Below, piece by piece: positions 8,049 through 41,832 of a DNA stretch of 64,000 nt. Origin of the DNA: Cohnella laeviribosi DSM 21336. GTDB taxonomy: Bacteria; Bacillota; Bacilli; Paenibacillales; Paenibacillaceae. The notes under the pieces were generated by a model. That model saw nothing but the letters and a program-made list of their open reading frames with translations. It did not search any database and had not been told where the DNA came from. The stretch spans positions 62,001 to 126,000 of the forward strand of contig NZ_KB899813.1 in the NCBI RefSeq assembly GCF_000378425.1, given 5' to 3'. The position numbers were made by a program, and so were the translations under genes. The first letter of the stretch is position 1. Every line of letters begins with the position of its first letter.

Positions 8049-9175
8049 GCGAGGAGAGCAAGCGGTCTTTCGGCCGGAACCGAAAGCCGGGCAATCCCAA
8101 GCCTGCCGGCGGCAGGCTCCCGGCGGACAGGTTCGCGGCGCTCAGAGTCGTTCTGTCCATACTGCTGGTCCTCATCGTGCTCTTTCTTTGCTGGTGCGTC
8201 GCCTTCTGGGCGGCGGAAGCCGTCTATCGCCGATTCGGCTGGCAGCCCGGCCTGCTGGCCCGGCAGCTCATCGTTTCCGTGGCGGGGTTTCTGCTGTTCG
8301 GCACCGGGATGTCCATCGTATCGAGATTGGTGCAAAGAAAGCAGATGGATTATTTTCAAATTCTGATCGACGCCTTCAGGCGCATTTCCAGCGGGGATTT
8401 TCACATTCGGCTCAATCCGCCCGGAAGAATCGGGCATCCCTTCAACCAGCTTGTCCGGAGCATCAACGAAATGGCCGAAAATTTGAAGAACATGGAAGAA
8501 ATGCGCCAGGAGTTCATCTCGAACGTATCCCACGAGATTCAGTCGCCGCTGACTTCGATCGGCGGATTCGCCAAAGTGCTGAAAAATGACGCGATCAGCC
8601 GGGAGCAGGCGCTCCATTATCTGGACATTATCGAACGGGAGAGCGAGCGGCTGTCCAAACTGAGCGACAACATGCTGCGGCTGGCTTCGCTCGATTCGGA
8701 CCGCCACCCTTTCCGCCCCGAAGCCTTCCGCCTCGACAAGCAGATCCGATTGCTCATTCTGGCTTGCGAGCCGCAATGGACGGAGAAGGAGCTCGAGTTG
8801 AACGCGGACCTTGAGCCGGTCGTCATCGAAGCCGATCAGGATCTGCTCAGCCAGGTTTGGGTCAACCTGCTCCATAACGCGATCAAGTTTACGCCGGCCG
8901 GAGGATCGATCGATGTCGGCATTCGCAGGGAGGGCGACGCCGTCGAGGTCACTGTGTCCGATACCGGCATCGGGATTACGGAGGAAGACAAGCTTCATAT
9001 GTTCGAACGCTTCTACAAAGCGGACAAATCGCGGACGGCGGCCGCCGGCGGCAGCGGGCTGGGGCTTACGATCGCCAGCAAAATCGTCGGCATGCACCGG
9101 GGAAGCATCGAGGCGTCGGGCAAGCCGGGAGAAGGCACGGTCATGCGCGTGAAATTGCCGCTTAAGCAAGCGTAG
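8045..9175 (+). CDS. Membrane sensor histidine kinase
   Basis: A 376-residue kinase partnered with the preceding regulator. Two membrane segments (about residues 36-62 and 72-98) are separated by only about ten residues, so there is almost no extracytoplasmic sensor. A HAMP-like linker follows, then the H-box (SNVSHEIQSPLTS; phospho-histidine about residue 163), N-box (LLHNAIKFTP), G1 (VSDTGIGI) and G2 (GGSGLGLTIASK). This intramembrane-sensing layout, next to an ABC-2 exporter, resembles the BceS-like and LiaS-like cell-envelope stress sensors, which is an inference. It overlaps the regulator by ATGA and is the last gene of the set. Confidence 0.93.
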   Translation: MSEESKRSFGRNRKPGNPKPAGGRLPADRFAALRVVLSILLVLIVLFLCWCVAFWAAEAVYRRFGWQPGLLARQLIVSVAGFLLFGTGMSIVSRLVQRKQMDYFQILIDAFRRISSGDFHIRLNPPGRIGHPFNQLVRSINEMAENLKNMEEMRQEFISNVSHEIQSPLTSIGGFAKVLKNDAISREQALHYLDIIERESERLSKLSDNMLRLASLDSDRHPFRPEAFRLDKQIRLLILACEPQWTEKELELNADLEPVVIEADQDLLSQVWVNLLHNAIKFTPAGGSIDVGIRREGDAVEVTVSDTGIGITEEDKLHMFERFYKADKSRTAAAGGSGLGLTIASKIVGMHRGSIEASGKPGEGTVMRVKLPLKQA

Positions 9176-9233
9176 AAGCGGGAACGCGCCGCTTGACGCC
9201 GTCACCGCTTTTGGCGAAGGCGCCCGGTTCGGC

Positions 9234-9271
9234 CCTATGGGAATCAGCCTGTCAGAAGGCTGTCCCATAGG
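9234..9271. terminator. Hairpin between convergent genes
   Basis: CCTATGGGA-at-CAGCCT pairs with AGGCTG-TCCCATAGG around a six-base loop, between the kinase gene ending at 9175 and the minus-strand gene ending at 9298. No T-run follows on either strand, so it may be a weak bidirectional terminator or only an mRNA 3' structure. Confidence 0.45.
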
Positions 9272-9297
9272 CATTGCGGTCGCAACGGACGGCCGGT

Positions 9298-10866
9298 TCA
9301 GAGAACGGCGGGACGCTGCAATTGCAGGTGATCCGCCAGCGCCTGCTGGAGCGTTCTTTTCGTGATGGCCTTGTTTTCGAAGGACAGGCCCGACCGGATC
9401 ATCCATTTGACGATCTCCGGCCTCAGCCCCGTAATCACGGTTTGGCATCCCATCATTTTGATCCCGTCGATAATGTTGAACAGCTGGACGATGACCTCGG
9501 ATTCCATCTCCACCACGCCGGAAAGGTCGATGATCAGCATTTCGATGCGGTTGTTGCCGATTTGCGAGACGACTTTGTCTACGATGGTGTTCGAGCGAAA
9601 CAGATCGACGTTGCCGATCAAGGGCAGGATGGACGCTGTCGCCGTTAGCGGAATGATCGGGACGGAGAGATTTTCCACCATCTCCCGCTGCGCGCGGATC
9701 AGATCGTCCTTGAACTGGGAGTAGCTCGTAAAGAGATGGCTGATAAACAGGTCCATCAGTTCGTTAATGCGTTTTTCCAGGATGTAAAATTGCTCCTTGC
9801 TGGTGAGATAGTCGTTCATCTGGTCGTAGTTGTACAGAAAATCCCACAGCACGCGCCGAACGGCCTGAACCCATTCCAGCTTGACGGCCAAAGTCAGGGA
9901 GTGCCTTGCCCAGTTGACCCCTTCCGTCCTGGCGAAGGAAATGACTTCATGCTCCCGGCCTTCGACGACATAAAGCACCAGCCTGTGAGCGTTTTCCAAC
10001 AAATTGATATTGCAAACCTCCAAAATCTCGTCGATCTTCTCCTGCACGTTCACCGCTTCCGTCAGCAGACGTTCTTCGAACGCATTCCGGTTGTGGAGAA
10101 AGAAATCGATCAGGTTGTCCGTTGCGGACTTTTCGAGATTCAACCGGTTCACCTCTGTTCTCTTGCTGTTGCTTAAATCTTTCGGAAACGTGATCGTGAA
10201 GGTCGTTCCAACCCGTTCTTCGCTCTCCACCTTGATGACCCCGTTGTGCTGGTAAATGACCGAAAAGACGAAGGCCAGTCCCATGCCGGTTCCGTTTTCT
10301 TTGGTCGTGAAAAAAGGAGTGCCCAGCATATTCAGCTTCTCCTTCGGAATGCCGCAACCGCTGTCCTGTATGTATATGGTCACTTCGTTCTCCGTAGCCG
10401 ATTGCCCGATGATAATCGTGCCTTCTTCCGGAATGGCTTCGAAGGCGTTTTTGAGCAGGTTGAACAGCGCTTTCTTTAACTGGTTTCGTTTGCCGACGAT
10501 GAAGCTGCCCGGGTCCCGGTAGTTTTTGATGACCGCCACCCGGTAGAACTGATCCTGAAACAACTGCATCAGCGATTCCAATTCCACCGTCAGATCGATG
10601 GACACAAGCGGCTCGTTTTCCAGATCCGGCTTGGACATCTGAAGCAGATTTTGCAAAACGGCGATCGCATTTTCCAATTCCGACTGGGCGATTTCGATAT
10701 ATTTTTTTTCGTTTCGTTCCTTCAACAATTGCAAAAAGCCTTTGACGGCCGTCAGCGGATTTTTGACCTCATGGGCAATTCCCGCCGCGATCTGGCCGAC
10801 CGAAGCCAACTGGCTCAGGTGGACATCGCTTTTGATTTCTTGTTGCGCAATTTCGCTTTTGACCAT
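9298..10866 (-). CDS. Soluble histidine kinase fused to an RsbR-type STAS domain
   Basis: A 522-residue cytoplasmic protein with no membrane segment. The N-terminal half is a complete histidine kinase: H-box (GIAHEVKNPLTAVKGFL), N-box (LFNLLKNAFEAIPEEG), G1 (DSGCGIPKEK) and G2 (ENGTGMGLAF). Residues about 260-400 form an all-helical region like the sensor part of RsbR/stressosome proteins. Residues about 410-515 are a STAS domain (MLIIDLSGVVEMESEV, then GCQTVITGLRPEIVKWMIRSG). The start at 10866 (minus-strand ATG) follows GGAGGAG by six bases; the ATG just before it is the alternative. The gene stands alone, convergent with the exporter cluster. Each half is clear; the physiological role is not known. 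Confidence 0.85.
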   Translation of the reverse strand: MVKSEIAQQEIKSDVHLSQLASVGQIAAGIAHEVKNPLTAVKGFLQLLKERNEKKYIEIAQSELENAIAVLQNLLQMSKPDLENEPLVSIDLTVELESLMQLFQDQFYRVAVIKNYRDPGSFIVGKRNQLKKALFNLLKNAFEAIPEEGTIIIGQSATENEVTIYIQDSGCGIPKEKLNMLGTPFFTTKENGTGMGLAFVFSVIYQHNGVIKVESEERVGTTFTITFPKDLSNSKRTEVNRLNLEKSATDNLIDFFLHNRNAFEERLLTEAVNVQEKIDEILEVCNINLLENAHRLVLYVVEGREHEVISFARTEGVNWARHSLTLAVKLEWVQAVRRVLWDFLYNYDQMNDYLTSKEQFYILEKRINELMDLFISHLFTSYSQFKDDLIRAQREMVENLSVPIIPLTATASILPLIGNVDLFRSNTIVDKVVSQIGNNRIEMLIIDLSGVVEMESEVIVQLFNIIDGIKMMGCQTVITGLRPEIVKWMIRSGLSFENKAITKRTLQQALADHLQLQRPAVL

Positions 10867-11094
10867 CATACGCTCCTCCGATCCGTTCCGAATTTCCAAT
10901 CAAACGGCGTAATGACAACGAAACAGCTTGTTTAAAAAATTCAAAACAATTCTAATTATACATGAACTCAAAAAGAAATTTGTGCCAATTATTGTCTATA
11001 ATATGGATATTTTACCGCTCTAACGGACCTGATTTCCGCCCCGCTATTCGGTTTTGTCGGGAACGCCTTGCGCCAAAATTGTCTTATGTTTAAA

Positions 11095-11211: not shown

Positions 11212-12786
11212 GTGAAAAGGAAGTTTTCGCCGTTATCGGCCGTATCGATCGTCATGGTCTGCGTCATGCTCGCGCTCAGCGCTTGCTCCTCGTCTTCGAA
11301 TTCGCCGGGTCAAGCTTCAGCGCCGTCTGCAAGCGCTGCCACGACACCCGCGGGCGGAACCGCCTCGGGGGCGACGTCCGAAGCGCCGTTCGAAGGATGG
11401 GTCGAAGGGCTGCCGAAGATCGAAGCGCCCGCAGGATTTAACTGGCGGCAGTTCGAAGGAACGAAGCTGAACTTCATCTCCGAGAATACGCCGCCATCCT
11501 CCGCCCTTGCCGCCAACATTCGTATTTTTGAAGACGCGACGGGCATCGAGGTGAACATCGAGCAGAGCAACCTCGATCTGGTAGCCGAGAAGGTCGGGCT
11601 CGACTTCAATGCGAAAAACGCCAACTATCAGATCATCTACGCCGACCCGTACCAGATTTTGACCAAGCATTCCCGCAACCTGGTGGACCTGAACACGTTC
11701 AACAACGATCCGTCGCTGCCCCATATTCCCGGCGGAACGGAGGACTTCATCGAAAGCCAGCTTCAGGCCGACGGCTACATGGGCGACACCGAGCATCTCT
11801 ATACGCTGCCCTACGACAGCCCGACGATGGTTCTGGCCTACCGCAAGGACGTATTCGACAAGTACAAAGATCAATTCATGAAGGAAAAAGGCTACGACTG
11901 GACGCCTTCCGCCAACCTGACCTGGGAGCAGTATTATGAAATCGCTTCGTGGATCAACGAAAAAGTCAAAGCCGGCGTCATCACCGAAGTGAAGTACGGT
12001 TCCGGCCACGAAGCGAAGCAGCACGACGCGCTGCAATGCGATTTCAGCAACGTGCTGGGGGCATACGGCGCCGATTATTTCGAAGGGGAGAATCTCGGCA
12101 GCGTAGGCGCGGCCAAACCGGGCAAATCGCTGCTCACGTCCCCCGAAGCGATCGAAGCGGCCAAAATGTATAAGAAACTGCTGGAAGTCGCGGCTCCGGG
12201 CAGCACGACGTGGGACTGGACGGGCGTCGCGGAAGCGTTCGCGGCGGGCGAGCTGGCGATGGCGCCGATCTTCCACGAGAACAACGCCATGTTCGAAGAC
12301 GAGACGAAATCGAAAGTCGCGGGCAAGGTGGCATGGTCCGTTTTGCCGAAGGGACCGAAGCGCAGCGCCAACCTGTTCGGCGGAACGGGAATCGGCATCA
12401 GCAAATACGCGAGCGAAAAGGAACAAAAAGCGGCTTGGCTGTTCCTCGTCTGGGCGACTTCTCCGCAAGCGCAATATATGATTTTGAAATCGAAAGAAGC
12501 CGGTTCGACGCCGACCCGCCATTCGGTCTACAACCTGCCCGACGTGCAAAAAGGGATGGAGCCGGGAACGGAAGAGTCGAAAGCGATGCCGAACCTGCTG
12601 CCGATGAAGGCGGTTCTGGAAGCGTGGAAGCTGGAGAACGTGTACATGCGTCCGAAAGTTCCGCAATGGCCGCAAGTGGACACGATCATCTACACCGAGC
12701 TGTCCAAGATGCTGTTTAACAAGCAATCGCCGGAAGACACGATGAAGACGATCGCCAAGAAGAGCGACGAAATTACGGGAGCTTAA
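11212..12786 (+). CDS. ABC sugar/polyol-binding lipoprotein
   Basis: A 524-residue extracellular solute-binding protein (family 1) anchored to the membrane by lipid. GTG 11212 starts a classic lipoprotein signal: VKRKF, hydrophobic core, lipobox LSAC with the acylated cysteine at about residue 27, then a Ser/Pro/Ala linker. The frame is open to ATG 11122, but the GTG has the GAGGGGGA site and puts the signal peptide at the N terminus. The body (KLNFISENTPPSSALAANI, MAPIFHENNAMF, GGTGIGISKYA) fits polyol- and sugar-binding proteins. It heads the operon with two permeases and dehydrogenases, so a sugar alcohol is the likely ligand. Confidence 0.9.
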   Translation: MKRKFSPLSAVSIVMVCVMLALSACSSSSNSPGQASAPSASAATTPAGGTASGATSEAPFEGWVEGLPKIEAPAGFNWRQFEGTKLNFISENTPPSSALAANIRIFEDATGIEVNIEQSNLDLVAEKVGLDFNAKNANYQIIYADPYQILTKHSRNLVDLNTFNNDPSLPHIPGGTEDFIESQLQADGYMGDTEHLYTLPYDSPTMVLAYRKDVFDKYKDQFMKEKGYDWTPSANLTWEQYYEIASWINEKVKAGVITEVKYGSGHEAKQHDALQCDFSNVLGAYGADYFEGENLGSVGAAKPGKSLLTSPEAIEAAKMYKKLLEVAAPGSTTWDWTGVAEAFAAGELAMAPIFHENNAMFEDETKSKVAGKVAWSVLPKGPKRSANLFGGTGIGISKYASEKEQKAAWLFLVWATSPQAQYMILKSKEAGSTPTRHSVYNLPDVQKGMEPGTEESKAMPNLLPMKAVLEAWKLENVYMRPKVPQWPQVDTIIYTELSKMLFNKQSPEDTMKTIAKKSDEITGA

Positions 12787-36279: not shown

Positions 36280-36360
36280 TCAGTCGTAAGTCATGGTAAG
36301 GTCCCGCCTGGTGATTTTGTCAAAGGTTTTGGCGATCAAAATGGTTTCCAAAACAAACTC

Positions 36361-36450
36361 GCCAAGTCGAGAATCGCCAAAAGTTCTCACCAAGGACGAG
36401 AATCGCCAAAGGTGCACCGCCAAGTGCGAGAATTGCCAAAGGCGCCGCCG
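36361..36450 (+). repeat. 29-30-bp degenerate repeat, three units
   Basis: GAGAATCGCCAAA (third copy GAGAATTGCCAAA) recurs at 36369, 36398 and 36428 with partly conserved flanks (CCAAG). Confidence 0.6.
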
Positions 36451-36596: not shown

Positions 36597-36623
36597 TCAA
36601 AATTCTGGGCAATTATCCGATAT
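36597..36623 (+). promoter_or_regulatory. Sigma-D-like (flagellar) promoter of the c-di-GMP operon
   Basis: TCAA at 36597-36600, a 15-base spacer, and TCCGATAT at 36616-36623 match the Bacillus sigma-D consensus TAAA-N15-GCCGATAT at 10 of 12 positions. A TATAAT overlaps at 36621-36626 but has no sigma-A -35. The start of transcription would lie about 35-40 bases before the riboswitch. Confidence 0.7.
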
Positions 36624-36667
36624 AATGAGTGAACAGGAAGTTAAAGAAATCATAAATTCAATAAGAT

Positions 36668-36746
36668 GAAAAGGCAAACCTGTCGAAAGACAGGGACGCA
36701 AAGCCACGGGTCTAAGGTATATCTACTATGATCGCCGGGCTGCCAA
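36668..36746 (+). ncRNA. Cyclic-di-GMP class I (GEMM) riboswitch
   Basis: The aptamer shows the GEMM-I core in order: GGCAAACC, a short hairpin with a CGAAAG loop (CCTGTCGAAAGACAGG), GACGCAAAGCCACGGG, TCTAA, a second hairpin, and CCGGGCTGCC closing the P1 stem. It binds the second messenger c-di-GMP, which signals the switch between motile and sessile life. An intrinsic terminator lies 35 bases downstream, so control is probably by transcription attenuation. The regulated gene is an MCP. Confidence 0.95.
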
Positions 36747-36780
36747 ACTTATGATTTTTGTGTCTTCATCCATGGCAGCA

Positions 36781-36812
36781 GGGGCTTTCTTAGGTAGAAA
36801 GTCCCTTTTTTG
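36781..36812 (+). terminator. Riboswitch expression-platform terminator
   Basis: GGGGCTTTC pairs with GAAAGTCCC around a seven-base loop, followed by six T. It stands between the aptamer and the first coding gene. Confidence 0.9.
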
Positions 36813-36867
36813 TTTGTCCTTGTGAAGACGATTCCTGCAACCTGGGCAAAGCCGCGGAAAGAAGGTG

Positions 36868-36939
36868 ATGGATGTTCGCGTGAGTGCGGCCGGATCGAGC
36901 GAACGCGTTACGCGTGCCCGGGCGGAAAGTCGTTGGTGA
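36868..36939 (+). CDS. Possible 23-residue leader ORF
   Basis: ATG 36868 follows AAGAAGG and encodes a short Arg/Ser/Ala-rich peptide ending at TGA 36937. It lies between the riboswitch terminator and the MCP. It could be a leader peptide but has no recognisable homology and may be chance. Confidence 0.2.
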
Positions 36940-36970
36940 GCTGAATACGTATTGCTGGAGGAGAAAGGCT

Positions 36971-38242
36971 TTGAATTTGCGGCAATTGAAGAACAGCGTA
37001 GTCGGAAAATGGACACTGGCGATGACGGGAATCCTAGCGGTTTTTTTCGTCGCGTTTGGCATCGTGCTGTATTTTACGGCCTCGTCGGTCATCAAGGTCG
37101 ATATGGACGCATCGTACATAAAAGATCTTAAGGCCAGAGTGGCCTGGCTGAGCGCAGGATTCACCGTATTGTTCTTGCTGCTGGGGGCGGCCGGCTCTTA
37201 CGTTGCCGTACGCCGGGCGCTGGGCTCGTCCGGAAGGCTTGCTGCACTGCAGCCGGAGGCCGGCGGCGACGGGGCTTCGAGTTCTTCGCTCGAGGCGAAT
37301 GGACAGCTGCGCGAGGTGCTGGGCCGGATTGGGGAGCTGTCGGACAACGTGGCGTCCACCTCGCAATCCCTGGCCGGCAATACGGAGTTTTGCACGGACA
37401 TGGTCGTCGGCATCTCGGAATCGATTCAGCAGATCGCCGCGGGCAACGAGTCGATCGCCGACAGCGCGCGGTCGAACATGTTCATGCTGGAAGAGGTCAG
37501 CAAAGGGATGGAGCATATCGCGGAATCGTCCCAGGCGCTGGCGAACGAGACCGCGGAAGTGGCCCAGAAGGCGAATGACGGCTTTGGGCTGATCGAGCAG
37601 GCTGTCGCGCAGATGAAAAACATCACCGACGCGGCGCATGCCTCGTCGGCCGCAGTCGAACAGACGGACCAACGCACCGAGGAGATCGACCGGGTCACGG
37701 TCATCATGGGGGAAATCGCAAGCCAGATCAATCTCCTGTCGCTCAACGCGGCGATCGAAGCGGCTCGCGCCGGCGAATACGGACGGGGGTTCGCCGTCGT
37801 GGCGGACGAAATCCGCAAGCTGGCCGACCAGTCTTCGAACTCGGCCAAGGAAATCGCGCGGATGGTCGAGCATATTCGCGCCGGTTCGCGGGAATCGCGC
37901 AAAGCCATGAGCCAGGTTCTGGTCGAGGTGCAATCGGGCGCCGAAATCGTCGCCGTCGCCGGACAATCGTTCCGCGAAATCGTGCAATTGACGGAAAACG
38001 TGTCTTACAAAGTGCAGGAAGTATCCGGCGTGACGCAGGAGGTCAGCGCCAGCGCCGAGCAAATTCTCGGCTCCATGCGGGAGACGGTGAGCATTACGGA
38101 AATGGCGCTCGCCGGAGCGAAGGAGATCGCGGCTTGCTCGGAGGAGCAGCTGACGGCGATGGAAGAATCGCTCCAGTCCGCGCGGCAGTTGCAGGAGCAG
38201 GCGAAGCAGTTGAAGCGCGAAATCGATTCGTGCGCCGATTGA
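36971..38242 (+). CDS. Membrane methyl-accepting chemotaxis protein with minimal outer loop
   Basis: A chemoreceptor of about 423 residues. Two membrane segments (about 17-40 and 60-85) are separated by only about 20 residues, so there is no extracytoplasmic sensor domain. Signals must come from the membrane, the cytoplasm or a partner. The cytoplasmic part has the MCP hairpin ([39 protein letters not shown]) and flanking adaptation helices; no HAMP is obvious. TTG 36971 is preceded by GGAGGAGAAAGG. The frame is open back to GTG 36884. It is the first gene under the c-di-GMP riboswitch, linking its synthesis to c-di-GMP level. The GAF-protein gene begins 16 bases later. Confidence 0.9.
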
Positions 38243-38258
38243 CGAAGGAGGGACCGCG

Positions 38259-38696
38259 ATGGATTTGGAACAGCTTCGCGAACTGTTCGGGCGGCTTGAG
38301 AAGTTGACCGGCGTGCGGGATATTGCCTACCACCGGATCGAGGGGGGCCGTCTGAATCCCGTGCTCAAGACCCACACCGACATCCTGGGCGTCGAAAAGT
38401 GGAAAAGCGTCCATGCGCAAAATCCGGTCTATATCGAGCGCGACCGGTTGCTTCGCGAGCTCGTCCGCGACCCGCGGCCGATCACCGTGCAGGATGTGAA
38501 AAACGATCCCCGGTCGGCGGAGGAGTTTTTTCTGTTCGGCATTGACAGCATCCTGATCCTGCCGGTGACGGAGAACGCGGCGGTTAAGGGAATTGTGGTT
38601 GTGGCTTCCATTGGGCAGCTTCATGAATTTACCGATGAGGAAGTGCGCGAAGCGCAGCGGCTGGTTGAAGGATACAGAGAAATATTCCGGGCTTAA
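38259..38696 (+). CDS. Single GAF-domain protein
   Basis: A 145-residue soluble protein made of one GAF domain: an N-terminal helix (LEQLRELFGRLEKLTG), central strands (PITVQDVKNDPRSAEEFF, FGIDSILILPVTENAAVKGIVVVAS) and a C-terminal helix (TDEEVREAQRLVEGYREIF). GAF domains bind small ligands or cyclic nucleotides; the ligand is unknown. It sits between an MCP and a ThDP enzyme in one operon (gaps of 16 and 18 bases), so it may present a ligand to the receptor. ATG 38259 follows AAGGAGGG. Confidence 0.85.
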   Translation: MDLEQLRELFGRLEKLTGVRDIAYHRIEGGRLNPVLKTHTDILGVEKWKSVHAQNPVYIERDRLLRELVRDPRPITVQDVKNDPRSAEEFFLFGIDSILILPVTENAAVKGIVVVASIGQLHEFTDEEVREAQRLVEGYREIFRA

Positions 38697-38714
38697 CGGA
38701 GAGGAGAGAGAGCT

Positions 38715-40340
38715 GTGAACATAGCGGAAGCCATACTGCGTTATCTGAAGGCCAATCAAGTCGAGTATCTGTTCGGCATTCCGGCGGGAATTATCGGTCC
38801 GGTATACGATTCCCTGATCGACGTCGGCATCAAGCCGATCATTACCAAGAACGAAGCCGGGGCCGCTTATATGGCTGCCCGTTATGCGAGCACCTCCGGC
38901 AAGCTCGCGGTGTGCGCCGGCGCGGGAGCGGTCGGCGTGAGCAACATGATGAACGGAATTGCCGACGCGATGCGGGCGAAGGCCCCGATGCTCGTCATCG
39001 CCGGCTATATCAATCGCTGGCAAATGGGCAAGGGCGCCATTCAGGAACTGGACGGCGAGCAAATGGTCAAGCCGGTCACCAAGTACAGCGCGACGGTTCT
39101 GAACGAGGCCGATGTCTTGGCCGAGCTCGACAAGGCGGTGCGCATTGCGCTGACTCCGCCGTGCGGGCCGGTCTATATTTCCGTGCCGATCGATGTGCAG
39201 CGCGCGGAGTTCGAAGGGCCGCTGCCGGAGCCGGCGGACCTCTCCGAACTGCAGTCGGTCCGGCCGGACCGGGCCGCGCTGGAGCAGGCCGCCGAGCTGA
39301 TCAATCGCGCCGGCCAAGGCCTCATTATGGTGGGACGCGGGGGCCGCGGCTTCGGCGAGCAGATCATGCGGCTCAGCGAGCGCCTGCAGTGGCCGATCGT
39401 TACGACGCCCGCGGGCAAAGGCGTCATTCCCGGCGATTTTGCCCTGAACCTCGGCAACTACGGGTTCTCCAGCACGGACGCCGCGTTCGAGTACGTGAAT
39501 TCGGACAAGCCTTCCTGCGTGCTGATTTTGGGAACGAGCCTGGGAGAAGCCTCTACCTGCAATTTCAACGAGGCGCTCGTTGCGGGAAGAACCGTCATTC
39601 ACGTCGATCGCGATCCGAAAGAGCTCGGCAAGGTGTTCAAGACCGATCTCGCGATTCACGGCGATTTAAAGGAGGTGCTGCCCTACTTCATCGACAACAG
39701 CCGCAGCGCTCCGGCACGCTTCCGCAAGCCGGACCCGATCAACGAACCGTATGTGAACAACCATACCGGGTTGTCGCTCCGGTTGTTTCTCGAAGCGCTG
39801 CGCGGCTCAATGCCGGCCGATACGCGTTACGTTTGCGATATCGGAGAGTTCACCAACTTTGTGCTGAAATACCTTGAAATTCCTCGGGGCGGAGATTTCG
39901 AAATCAACCTGGACTACGGCGCCATGGGTTCGGCCATCGCCGGCGCAGCCGGTCTGGTGGCCGCCGATCCGACCCGTCCCGTAGCCGTGCTGGCGGGCGA
40001 CGGCTGCTTCTTCATGAACGGCATGGAGATTCTCACCGCCAAGGAATACCGGCTGCCGGTCATCTATTTCATTATCAACAACGCCATGCTGTCCTATGTC
40101 GAGAGAGGCCAGAAGTTCCTGTACAACCGGTCGATTCCCGACTACAAGCAGGAGCGGATTTCGATCGCCGACATGATGCGCACGGCGGGCGTCCGTTCGA
40201 TGACGGTCGAGAAGCTGGAAGACGTCCGGAACATTCGGCCGTTTGTCGAAGCGCTCGACGGGCCTTGCGTCATTGAAGTGGTGACCGACGGCAGCGAACC
40301 GGCCCCGATTCTGGACAGGCTGAAGGCGCTCGTGAAATAG
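38715..40340 (+). CDS. ThDP-dependent enzyme of the acetolactate synthase family
   Basis: A 541-residue enzyme with the three ThDP-family domains: N-terminal PYR domain with the cofactor-activating glutamate near residue 47 (TKNEAGAAYMAAR), central domain (LIMVGRGGRG, TPAGKGVIPGDFALNLG), and PP domain with the GDG...N ThDP/Mg motif at about 428 (AGDGCFFMNGMEILTAKEY). It would join 2-oxo acids or aldehydes into acetolactate or acyloin-type products. No ilvN, ilvC or leu genes are nearby, and the operon also holds a receptor and a KAS III-like enzyme. A role in a signal or secondary metabolite is therefore more likely than branched-chain amino acid synthesis. GTG 38715 follows GGAGAGAG. Confidence 0.9.
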   Translation: MNIAEAILRYLKANQVEYLFGIPAGIIGPVYDSLIDVGIKPIITKNEAGAAYMAARYASTSGKLAVCAGAGAVGVSNMMNGIADAMRAKAPMLVIAGYINRWQMGKGAIQELDGEQMVKPVTKYSATVLNEADVLAELDKAVRIALTPPCGPVYISVPIDVQRAEFEGPLPEPADLSELQSVRPDRAALEQAAELINRAGQGLIMVGRGGRGFGEQIMRLSERLQWPIVTTPAGKGVIPGDFALNLGNYGFSSTDAAFEYVNSDKPSCVLILGTSLGEASTCNFNEALVAGRTVIHVDRDPKELGKVFKTDLAIHGDLKEVLPYFIDNSRSAPARFRKPDPINEPYVNNHTGLSLRLFLEALRGSMPADTRYVCDIGEFTNFVLKYLEIPRGGDFEINLDYGAMGSAIAGAAGLVAADPTRPVAVLAGDGCFFMNGMEILTAKEYRLPVIYFIINNAMLSYVERGQKFLYNRSIPDYKQERISIADMMRTAGVRSMTVEKLEDVRNIRPFVEALDGPCVIEVVTDGSEPAPILDRLKALVK

Positions 40341-40394
40341 CGGCGGCCATCTTTTGTACCCAAAGAACAAACATTCATTCGGAGGTATTGCGAA

Positions 40395-40736
40395 ATGGGA
40401 AGCTTTAATATCGAACTGGACCAAACGAACAAAGTGTTGAAGGCGCAGGTGGAAGGGACCTTTTCGCCCGAGGACGGCATGAGATCCGTGGAGGCTTATC
40501 AAAAAAGCATCGCCTCGATCTCCGTACCGGAATACGAAATCGATATCGACTGCACGAAGCTCAACGTGTCCGCGCCCGATACGCTGCCGATTCTGGAAGG
40601 CTGCTTCCAAATGTACAAAAAAGACGGCTTCAAGAAGGTTACGCTTCGTCTGGCCAAAAACCCGATTTTGAAAATGCAGCTTTCCCGGATCGCCCGCTCG
40701 GTCCAATTGAACAATCTCGAAATCGTTGAGGTTTGA
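40395..40736 (+). CDS. Small STAS-like protein
   Basis: A 113-residue soluble protein. The alternating pattern (LKAQVEGTFSPEDGMRSVEAY, YEIDIDCTKLNVSAPDTLPIL, FKKVTLRLAKNPILKMQLSRI) resembles a SpoIIAA/STAS fold, with a strand, an acidic Asp-Cys-Thr/Ser turn and a following helix. I do not recognise it as a named family. GGAGG precedes ATG 40395. It lies between two metabolic genes of the riboswitch operon with 54-base gaps on both sides. A regulatory or scaffold role is only a guess. Confidence 0.7.
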   Translation: MGSFNIELDQTNKVLKAQVEGTFSPEDGMRSVEAYQKSIASISVPEYEIDIDCTKLNVSAPDTLPILEGCFQMYKKDGFKKVTLRLAKNPILKMQLSRIARSVQLNNLEIVEV

Positions 40737-40790
40737 GGCAAGTTTCGGTTTTGCAAGCTCCATAATTCGTAGAGACAGGGGAGTGGAACG

Positions 40791-41780
40791 ATGGGAGCCG
40801 TCCGCATTCGCGATATACAAGTCTATCATCCGTCCAATGAAGTCGACAACGAGTACTTTATCGAGCGGTTCAGACAAAAAGGGACCGAGGTTTCGGGACT
40901 GCTTCGGGCATTGGGCCGGAACAAGCGCTTCATGATCGACAATCCGGCTGAAAACACGCTGACGATGGCCATCGAAGCGTCCAAAAGCGCGCTGCAAAGC
41001 GCGGGACTTTCGGCCCGCGATTTGGATCTCATTATTTTCACTTCCCAGACGCCCGAATATTTGCTGCCCAGCAACGCTTTGAAGCTGCACAACGCGCTGG
41101 GCGGAGACCTAAATACGATTTGCTACGACCTCAACGCGAACTGCGCGGGCATGCTGGTCGCCGTGGACCAGGCGAGCCGCTACATGATGGGCAATCCCCG
41201 CATCGAACGCGCGCTTGTCGTCGGCGCCGACTACTTGACCGTGCACAGCCCGGACCAGCCGGTCTACTATTCCAATTTCGCGGATTCGGCCTGCGCGGTC
41301 ATTTTGGAAGCCGCTTCGGATACGCGCGGTTTGATCGACTCCATCTACCAGACGGACACTTCCGTCATCGACAATTCGCTGTTCCCCGCGCACGGGCTTT
41401 CCAACCTGTACCGCGAGGAATTTACGGCGAAGGACGCGCAGGTCCAGTTCACTCCGTTCGACGATTCCGTATGCGTCGATTCCGCGGTCGATTCGCTGCG
41501 GATTCTGCTGGAGCGCAACGGCATCGCCAAAGAGGACGTGGGAGGCTATCTGTTCTCGCAGTTCTCGCTCGGCAATGTGAAGCTGGTGGCGGAACGATTG
41601 GGCATCGACGAGCAAAAAGTGACCTACATTGGCGACAAATACGGCTATACGGCGACCAACAGCCCGTTCGTTGCGCTGTACGAAGCGCTCAAGGCAGGCA
41701 AGATCAGCCGGGGCGACTACCTCGTCTTCTGGACGGTCGGCGCGGGCTGGCAGAACGTGTCGCTGTTGATGCAGTATTGA
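40791..41780 (+). CDS. KAS III (FabH)-like thiolase-fold protein with altered catalytic triad
   Basis: A 329-residue thiolase-fold protein of the ketoacyl-ACP synthase III group. The active-site cysteine is kept (about residue 118, DLNANCAGML). The FabH histidine position (HQAN) reads SQFS (Gln about 257). The asparagine of GNTS reads GYTA (Tyr about 286). The fold motifs (VRIRDIQVYHP, LIIFTSQTPEY, ALVVGADYLT, GAGWQNVSLL) are intact. Loss of His and Asn argues against normal decarboxylative condensation and for acyl transfer or another thioester reaction. It is last in the c-di-GMP operon and probably acts on the product of the ThDP enzyme. ATG 40791 follows AGGGGAG. Confidence 0.85.
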   Translation: MGAVRIRDIQVYHPSNEVDNEYFIERFRQKGTEVSGLLRALGRNKRFMIDNPAENTLTMAIEASKSALQSAGLSARDLDLIIFTSQTPEYLLPSNALKLHNALGGDLNTICYDLNANCAGMLVAVDQASRYMMGNPRIERALVVGADYLTVHSPDQPVYYSNFADSACAVILEAASDTRGLIDSIYQTDTSVIDNSLFPAHGLSNLYREEFTAKDAQVQFTPFDDSVCVDSAVDSLRILLERNGIAKEDVGGYLFSQFSLGNVKLVAERLGIDEQKVTYIGDKYGYTATNSPFVALYEALKAGKISRGDYLVFWTVGAGWQNVSLLMQY

Positions 41781-41792
41781 TCCATGTGCCGC

Positions 41793-41832
41793 AGGCAGTC
41801 CGGGGGCGCGTCCCTTGGACTGCCTGTTTCGT
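41793..41832 (+). terminator. Intrinsic terminator of the riboswitch operon
   Basis: A perfect 9-bp stem, AGGCAGTCC / GGACTGCCT, with a G-rich/C-rich inner loop that can extend pairing, followed by TGTTTCGTTT. It marks the end of the unit that begins at 36597. Confidence 0.85.

Follow-up and report, generated by a model that had tools for sequence, protein, structure and literature searches.

A 64,000-nucleotide stretch of the Cohnella laeviribosi DSM 21336 genome (contig NZ_KB899813.1, positions 62,001 to 126,000; hereafter the window) carries at positions 36597-41832 a promoter, a riboswitch aptamer for cyclic diguanosine monophosphate (c-di-GMP), a terminator, five genes on the + strand and a closing terminator. 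The genes encode a methyl-accepting chemotaxis protein (MCP), a stand-alone GAF domain protein, a thiamine diphosphate (ThDP)-dependent enzyme, a protein with a predicted STAS fold and an enzyme resembling 3-oxoacyl-acyl carrier protein synthase III (KAS III). The promoter motif, the aptamer, the gene content and their conservation rest on computation. From these data we infer a reaction, a ligand, a flow of information and a switch sign, by which the operon would make and sense an acylated acyloin as a signal wired to c-di-GMP; we give this reading a probability of roughly 40%. The sigma-D-type promoter, the GAF and c-di-GMP context of paralogues of the ThDP enzyme, and the pairing of KAS with chemoreceptors in clostridial-type loci go beyond an earlier note on this DNA, which had been made from its letters alone.

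The operon and its control region

Conservation was examined in 394 genomes of the family Paenibacillaceae, with the operon type of the ThDP enzyme defined by a score of at least 970 bits. Because the whole-genome searches scored few candidates per genome (five for KAS, three for the ThDP family and phylum searches), their counts are lower bounds. The operon-type ThDP enzyme was found in at least 22 of the 394 genomes; a KAS gene adjoins it in 22/22, and all 22 loci, the window included, share a ThDP-STAS-KAS core. One locus (L037) is truncated where its contig stops, which leaves 21 testable operons, 16 of them with the MCP, 18 with the GAF gene and 13 with all five genes. A tblastn search detected no GAF gene in L180, L181 and L193. 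In L186, scored as lacking the MCP, the contig ends 717 bases upstream of the GAF gene, and the promoter core motif described below lies within that stretch.

The earlier note had described one promoter, one GEMM-I aptamer with terminator, five tightly spaced genes and a closing terminator as a single regulated unit and had made its view depend on the gene order being kept in relatives. The search of the 394 genomes bears out the gene order, and the elements themselves were recovered by Rfam, the terminator scan, the open reading frames (ORFs) and Pfam (Table 1). The gaps along the five genes are 16, 18, 54 and 54 bp. The MCP start is a TTG behind GGAGGAGAAAGG, and a longer GTG frame runs from 36884. 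The terminator scan returned 11 sites overall with 7.4 expected, and its weak sites are therefore uninformative. A phage origin is not supported, as a scan of viral contigs with the KAS gave five pattern matches and zero relatives.

Table 1. Features of the C. laeviribosi operon, in window coordinates
Feature	Position	Strand	Basis
Sigma-D (flagellar sigma factor) type promoter, apparent	36597..36623	+	TCAA-N15-TCCGATAT; TMAA-N16-CCGATAW pattern
c-di-GMP-I (GEMM-I) riboswitch aptamer	36663..36747	+	Rfam RF01051, 89.4 bits
Possible switching region, approximate bounds	36733..36784	+	Fold with terminator 3' arm blocked, read by eye
Leader terminator hairpin and T-run	36780..36806	+	Terminator scan
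Methyl-accepting chemotaxis protein (MCP)	36971..38242	+	PF00015, 140.7 bits
Stand-alone GAF domain protein	38259..38696	+	PF01590, 24.7 bits; AlphaFold2 model and PDB match
ThDP-dependent carboligase, CsmA/CybE type, GTG start	38715..40340	+	Three TPP domains (Pfam)
Predicted STAS (SpoIIAA-like) fold protein without named family	40395..40736	+	AlphaFold2 and Foldseek
KAS III-fold protein, probably acyltransferase	40791..41780	+	Pfam ACP_syn_III and III_C; alignment; tree
Closing intrinsic terminator	41791..41827	+	16-pair stem, T-rich tail

The unit was placed in the earlier note as starting at 36597, which is the first base of the promoter. The consensus for sigma-D, the flagellar sigma factor, is TAAA-N15-GCCGATAA. 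The pattern TMAA-N16-CCGATAW has a single match in the window, with 0.09 expected. In 19 of the 21 orthologous operons (the window is among the 21; L039 and L040 are the exceptions), its CCGATAW core is present no more than 560 bases upstream of the first gene. The antisense strand has the core in 0/21, and a stretch of the same length taken from within the first gene has it in 3/21; these counts are not independent, since the operons are related by descent. In the same genome, TMAA-N16-CCGATAW also precedes a FlgM-like gene (L137; flgM recognised by eye). A sigma-70 promoter is not supported as the main promoter, its scan giving four matches with 2.3 expected. The operon is apparently transcribed from a sigma-D-type, that is a motility, promoter. 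Upstream of it, a short GAGAATCGCCAAA-like unit recurs imperfectly at 36330-36450, as read by eye.

The aptamer belongs to RF01051 by covariance model (E 2e-16, gathering score 35), and no other Rfam match in the window reaches the gathering score; six c-di-GMP-I aptamers occur in the whole genome of 4.5 Mb. It is present in 12 of the 21 testable operons (the window, L036, L038, L039, L040, L179, L183, L185, L187, L188, L190 and L191), with a weak match of 45 bits in L179. In L190 and L191, where the MCP is absent, the aptamer precedes the GAF gene. The aptamer also accompanies KAS-STAS pairs in L069-L072 and L100-L102, whose organisms partly overlap, and occurs at the Herbinix locus L086. For the 48 KAS loci of a genome contig scan, Rfam was run on 29 and a custom aptamer model, R1, on all 48.

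A hairpin and T-run follow the aptamer in 14/14 leaders inspected, a count made without a shuffle control. In six of eight leaders, as read by eye, blocking the 3' arm of the terminator gives a best fold in which the 3' strand of the aptamer pairs with a GGCAGC-like stretch and with the terminator foot. The riboswitch Cd1 of Clostridioides difficile controls a flagellar operon, whereas the Cohnella switch heads an operon of a receptor and enzymes. Cd1 is an OFF switch, and according to passages of PMC9262584 its aptamer can form together with the terminator, both being in competition with an antiterminator. A comparable alternative pairing can be drawn in the Cohnella leader. From the eye-read folds and this analogy with Cd1, the switch is predicted to be OFF at high c-di-GMP, which agrees with the sigma-D promoter.

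The ThDP enzyme and its paralogues

Among solved structures, the nearest relatives of the operon ThDP enzyme are CsmA (8x3z, 395 bits) and BbmA (265 bits). Passages of PMC12395478, where the latter is printed BpmA, call both CybE homologues, and the putative CybE-type label used here is drawn from the match to these two. In the same passages CybE makes an alpha-hydroxy-beta-keto acid and CybF then O-acylates the product; the pair is likewise described in passages of PMC8777810, which name CybF a 3-oxoacyl-acyl carrier protein (ACP) synthase, and of PMC13288894. Of the NCBIfam models, 59 match the operon enzyme, and on each of the 25 shown its score stays under the cut-off. With TIGR00118 it scores 259 bits, far from the cut-off of 538 that marks IlvB, while the IlvB of the genome lies elsewhere (G000:C8) and reaches 840 bits on the same model. 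We therefore reject it as the acetolactate synthase of the strain, and the reservation in the earlier note that it might be the only such enzyme did not hold.

At least 43 ThDP paralogues beyond the operon type (E 1e-90 or better, 396-463 bits) occur in the 394 family genomes, and all 43 neighbourhoods were inspected (L195-L237). GAF proteins tied to c-di-GMP enzymes lie upstream of the ThDP gene in 43/43. In 31 of them the gene follows one for a GAF-GAF-PAS-GGDEF-EAL protein, with 21-248 bases between the EAL and ThDP matches; the PAS domain and the domain order were confirmed by Pfam in L195, L196 and L197. The remaining 12 have the order HD domain, REC-GGDEF, GAF-GAF-histidine kinase, ThDP in 12/12, and the kinase and ThDP matches lie 15-30 bases apart (Pfam for L219). 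In the ThDP tree the three contexts form three clades, each with a support of 100 in the Shimodaira-Hasegawa-like approximate likelihood ratio test (SH-aLRT), in a quick tree that has SH-aLRT support only and two outgroup rows with very long branches. Representatives of the three subfamilies retain all three TPP domains (Pfam). A gene-by-gene inventory of four paralogue loci shows no KAS of the operon clade. The enzyme of L195 matches CsmA at 824 bits, and CsmA therefore belongs to the GGDEF-EAL-linked group. In a phylum sample of 398 genomes, matches at the level of the paralogues were found only in the genome of the window and in G228, which lies outside the family and has its ThDP gene behind a GGDEF-EAL frame (domains by eye), the arrangement recorded for L238.

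The stand-alone GAF protein of the operon was modelled by AlphaFold2 with a predicted local distance difference test score (pLDDT) of 90.9, and its best PDB match is a GAF domain (E 1e-8). Five whole genomes were searched with a profile of the operon GAF. Beyond the GAF of the operons themselves, it matched only GAF domains in proteins adjoining ThDP genes (G476, G495 and G704); in G002 nothing reached E 0.001, and the genome of the window (G000) gave only its own. These neighbourhoods suggest a tentative, and in our estimate possible rather than probable, generalization: a ThDP-based signalling family of the Paenibacillaceae, in which CsmA/CybE-type enzymes would make acyloin-type molecules, cognate GAF domains would read them, and three outputs would touch c-di-GMP, namely GGDEF-EAL proteins, a histidine kinase with REC-GGDEF and HD proteins, and a chemotaxis operon controlled by sigma-D and, in 12/21 cases, by a c-di-GMP riboswitch, in which KAS and STAS would add an acyl tail.

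A purely metabolic role was also considered, in which swimming cells would turn a surplus of pyruvate or of branched 2-oxo acids into acyloin esters for disposal and the receptor would steer by the food compound. A sigma-D-type promoter and a ThDP sequence resembling acetolactate synthase would both suit such a module. The five genes, however, include no dehydrogenase or decarboxylase gene, the NCBIfam scores given above count against it, and the GAF and c-di-GMP neighbours of the paralogues would be left unexplained. We regard this role as quite improbable.

The KAS III-like clade and its partners

Aligned with solved FabH sequences, the window KAS retains Cys118 but has Ser256 in place of the His and Tyr286 in place of the Asn, and so lacks the Cys-His-Asn triad of FabH. 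Both replacements are invariant in 28/28 diverse rows. Among 73 full-length KAS frames (a count that leaves out L083, L088 and L089), the Cys motif is found in 73, SQF in 71 and GYT in 70; L068 reads GNT, as in FabH. The enzyme is 54% identical to the xcl-type KAS of Xenorhabdus (the third gene of locus L058), which has the same SQF and YGYT replacements. In a tree of 44 of the 49 KAS from the window and the contig scan, the Xenorhabdus KAS joins the five-gene KAS and two rows from Paenibacillus in a clade with SH-aLRT 99, and the FabH outgroup stands apart with 100. This is again a quick tree with SH-aLRT support only. The rows omitted are L083, L088 and L089, whose frames are split or broken, L043 and L077, whose frame was not selected, and also L036 and L042. 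On both X. vietnamensis contigs, L083 and L088, the xcl-type KAS at 10001-10980 is split into two frames in the same layout.

Passages of PMC4425429 count XclB/XclC as ester-forming members of the condensation-like enzymes, and passages of PMC4578411 name xenocyloin among the pathways with acylating ketosynthases. Because the His and Asn are replaced, the Xenorhabdus KAS is related and XclB/XclC are cited as ester-forming, O-acylation appears the likeliest chemistry of the window KAS. The ThDP enzymes of the two settings are far less alike. That of the Xenorhabdus locus is ScyA-related and scores 467 bits on TPP_ScyA_rel, compared with 188 bits for the operon enzyme, which is thus not of the XclA type. 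The earlier note had likened the operon to xenocyloin synthesis by a pair of a ThDP and a FabH-like enzyme; the likeness stands for the KAS but fails for the ThDP enzyme, which is of the CsmA/CybE type and only 22% identical to its Xenorhabdus counterpart. Since the Xenorhabdus ThDP enzyme is ScyA-related and this distant, KAS of this clade seem to have met ThDP enzymes twice.

The clade is widespread. The KAS profile matched at E 1e-40 or better in at least 190 of the 394 family genomes, 14 of them marginal (about 1e-41 to 1e-42), which leaves at least 176 when the marginal matches are excluded. The contig scan, which reached only loci bearing one of two peptide patterns, gave its 48 KAS loci from sources that include Xenorhabdus bovienii and X. 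vietnamensis. A STAS-fold gene was found near the KAS in all 30 Bacilli loci of the contig scan and in 28/28 family-search loci, with a profile built partly from the proteins it then found; in L084 and L089 it lies on the opposite strand. The STAS-like protein of the operon (113 residues) has no Pfam match and could not be named by sequence. Its AlphaFold2 model (pLDDT 89.2) was matched by Foldseek to SpoIIAA, DUF3478 (2q3l) and RsbS, with a best E of 1.5e-5, and the SpoIIAA match (E 1.5e-5, TM 0.66) points to a STAS fold. The ORF list and Pfam show no anti-sigma gene among the five operon genes. The common STAS-KAS two-gene pair was seen in L060-L066, L068, L103-L114, L117, L120, L122, L123, L125 and L126, where model R1 found no c-di-GMP aptamer in the stretches searched. 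In Paenibacillus caui (L050), a second STAS copy lies downstream of the KAS at 11233-11571.

In clostridial-type loci the KAS is paired with a chemoreceptor. The chemoreceptor gene adjoins the KAS gene in 14 of 15 loci (11 downstream, two divergent, and one upstream with a STAS gene between). The remaining locus, L079, has STAS, and among the 15 loci one contig bears the label Muribaculaceae. The order KAS then chemoreceptor was noted in L067, L073, L074, L076-L078, L081, L085-L087 and L090. By hydropathy only, the number of hydrophobic segments in the clostridial-type receptors examined is four to six, except in L075, which has none, and an extracellular domain is absent. The operon MCP, judged in the same way, has two such segments about 24 residues apart and no extracellular sensor domain, and most MCPs of the five-gene operons have two. 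The genome of the window gave three CheA-type and 14 MCPsignal matches, and some of the latter fall within one gene; one CheA-type and one MCP match lie at G000:C6:61736-64850, close to the left edge of the window and about 35 kb from the operon.

These pairings bear on whether the locus might simply produce a secondary metabolite of the xenocyloin or furanolide kind, by acyloin formation, O-acylation and perhaps ring closure. The motility and c-di-GMP timing would then be ecological, the product would hit competitors and the MCP would be a passenger. Pairs of ThDP and KAS III-type enzymes do make xenocyloins and furanolides, according to passages of PMC4425429, PMC4578411, PMC12395478, PMC8777810 and PMC13288894, and 5/21 operons lack the MCP. 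On the other hand, the ORF list and Pfam show no tailoring, transport or resistance gene among the five genes, the GAF gene is kept in 18/21 operons, and GAF and c-di-GMP proteins stand beside 43/43 paralogues. Chemoreceptors adjoin KAS of the same clade in 14/15 clostridial-type loci, so that the clade pairs with chemoreceptors in two distant settings; this is the strongest argument against the MCP as a passenger. A role confined to such a metabolite looks rather doubtful to us.

The same loci can be read in another way, with the enzymes themselves as sensors. The KAS and ThDP homologues would bind acyl-CoA or acyl-ACP and 2-oxo acids and report to the GAF protein, the STAS protein and the MCP by docking, giving metabolism-dependent taxis with no diffusible product. 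Many loci that pair KAS with an MCP or STAS have no ThDP gene nearby, the KAS lacks the His and Asn used in condensation, and hydropathy shows no extracellular domain in the clostridial-type MCPs examined, all of which would fit. Yet the Cys motif is retained in 73/73 full-length KAS frames and the TPP domains are intact in representatives of the three ThDP subfamilies. In addition, passages of PMC12395478 discuss CsmA, the nearest solved relative, as a synthetic enzyme, and passages of PMC4425429 cite the xcl relatives as ester-forming. We judge this sensor role unlikely.

Proposed mechanism and known systems

In the signal reading, transcription would start at the sigma-D-type promoter and, because the promoter is of this type, in cells with the motility programme switched on; the transcript would run through the c-di-GMP-I aptamer and then the terminator, two steps with computational support. 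At low c-di-GMP, the 3' aptamer strand may pair with the terminator foot and allow read-through, and at high c-di-GMP the aptamer would retain its 3' strand and transcription would stop. The ThDP enzyme might then join two 2-oxo acids to an alpha-hydroxy-beta-keto acid or an acyloin. The KAS-like enzyme would load an acyl group on Cys118 and move it to the acyloin hydroxyl, with no chain extension. The GAF protein may sense the product or its precursor, and the MCP, through the GAF protein or directly, would signal to CheA. We picture the STAS-fold protein as a standing partner of the KAS, perhaps a carrier or docking piece. The ThDP paralogues could pass a signal of this kind on to GGDEF-EAL proteins, or else to a GAF histidine kinase and its REC-GGDEF response regulator.

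Several observations weigh against this reading. The sigma-D pattern has 18 matches genome-wide compared with 7 for a reversed control, and most of the 18 are not upstream of recognisable motility genes, so that one match alone is no proof. The aptamer is missing in 9/21 operons, the MCP in 5/21 and the GAF gene in 3/21; neither the MCP nor the aptamer is therefore indispensable. In two of the eight folded leaders (L044 and L045) the antiterminator is not the best alternative fold, and in the unconstrained folds of L049 and L052 the antiterminator pairing coexists with a slightly shortened terminator. The Pfam match of the GAF protein is weak (24.7 bits with a cut-off of 22.4), and the MCP frames chosen in L044, L053 and L054 have no hydrophobic segment. 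No known riboswitch or other RNA family was found in the 12 ThDP paralogue loci searched. The KAS clade is also far commoner than the operon. A ThDP gene lies within 1.5 kb of the KAS in only seven of the 28 family-search loci, and the other 21 have STAS and KAS without it; since these 21 lack a nearby ThDP gene, the KAS cannot everywhere rely on the acyloin of an operon-type ThDP enzyme. Nine STAS-KAS loci viewed with wider flanks have neither a known riboswitch nor a recognisable sigma-D promoter, and control by either as a trait of the whole KAS family is rejected.

If the signal reading is true, a small-molecule synthase, c-di-GMP and chemotaxis are linked within one transcript, with the hint of a chemical signal in the decision to swim or settle, and the metabolite is predicted mainly in motile cells with low c-di-GMP. 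It would also suggest a role for a KAS III-like clade present in at least 176 of the 394 family genomes and provide the crystallised CsmA with a physiological setting beside c-di-GMP proteins. Known relatives exist for each piece, that is for the c-di-GMP riboswitch, the acylating KAS, the CybE-type ThDP enzyme, the MCP, the GAF protein and the STAS protein. For the five-gene combination, the sigma-D-type promoter and the link of ThDP enzymes with GAF and c-di-GMP proteins, no description was found in searches of an open-access library.

Among known systems, the xenocyloin cluster xclABC of Xenorhabdus bovienii shares with the operon the related KAS and its SQF/YGYT replacements, and there too a ThDP gene lies near the KAS gene. 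Unlike the operon, the Xenorhabdus locus L058, in which we assign the names xclA, xclB and xclC by gene order, carries a second KAS (8853-9884) with Thr at the catalytic Cys position, in this resembling a PqsB-type partner subunit. The operon has one KAS, only 18% identical to this second enzyme, and thus no counterpart of the XclB type. An MCP, a GAF protein, a STAS protein and a known riboswitch were not found in L058.

The furanolide pathway, with CybE and CybF, resembles the operon in placing a ThDP enzyme, presumably of the same CsmA/CybE type, alongside a KAS III-fold enzyme. It differs in that the operon has no coumaroyl-CoA supply gene among its five genes and that 31 of the 43 ThDP paralogues stand behind GGDEF-EAL proteins.

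Conceptually nearest are the alpha-hydroxyketone quorum-sensing systems CqsA/CqsS and LqsA/LqsS. The proposed signal falls in the same chemical class as theirs, and the 12 histidine kinase loci, like these systems, put a putative synthase gene beside genes for a sensor kinase and a response regulator. CqsA and LqsA are pyridoxal phosphate (PLP)-dependent, whereas the putative synthase here is a ThDP enzyme, and the Pfam matches of the five operon proteins include no PLP-dependent family. If the broader signalling-family reading is true, the Paenibacillaceae would hold a class of alpha-hydroxyketone signalling that is independent of CqsA and LqsA.

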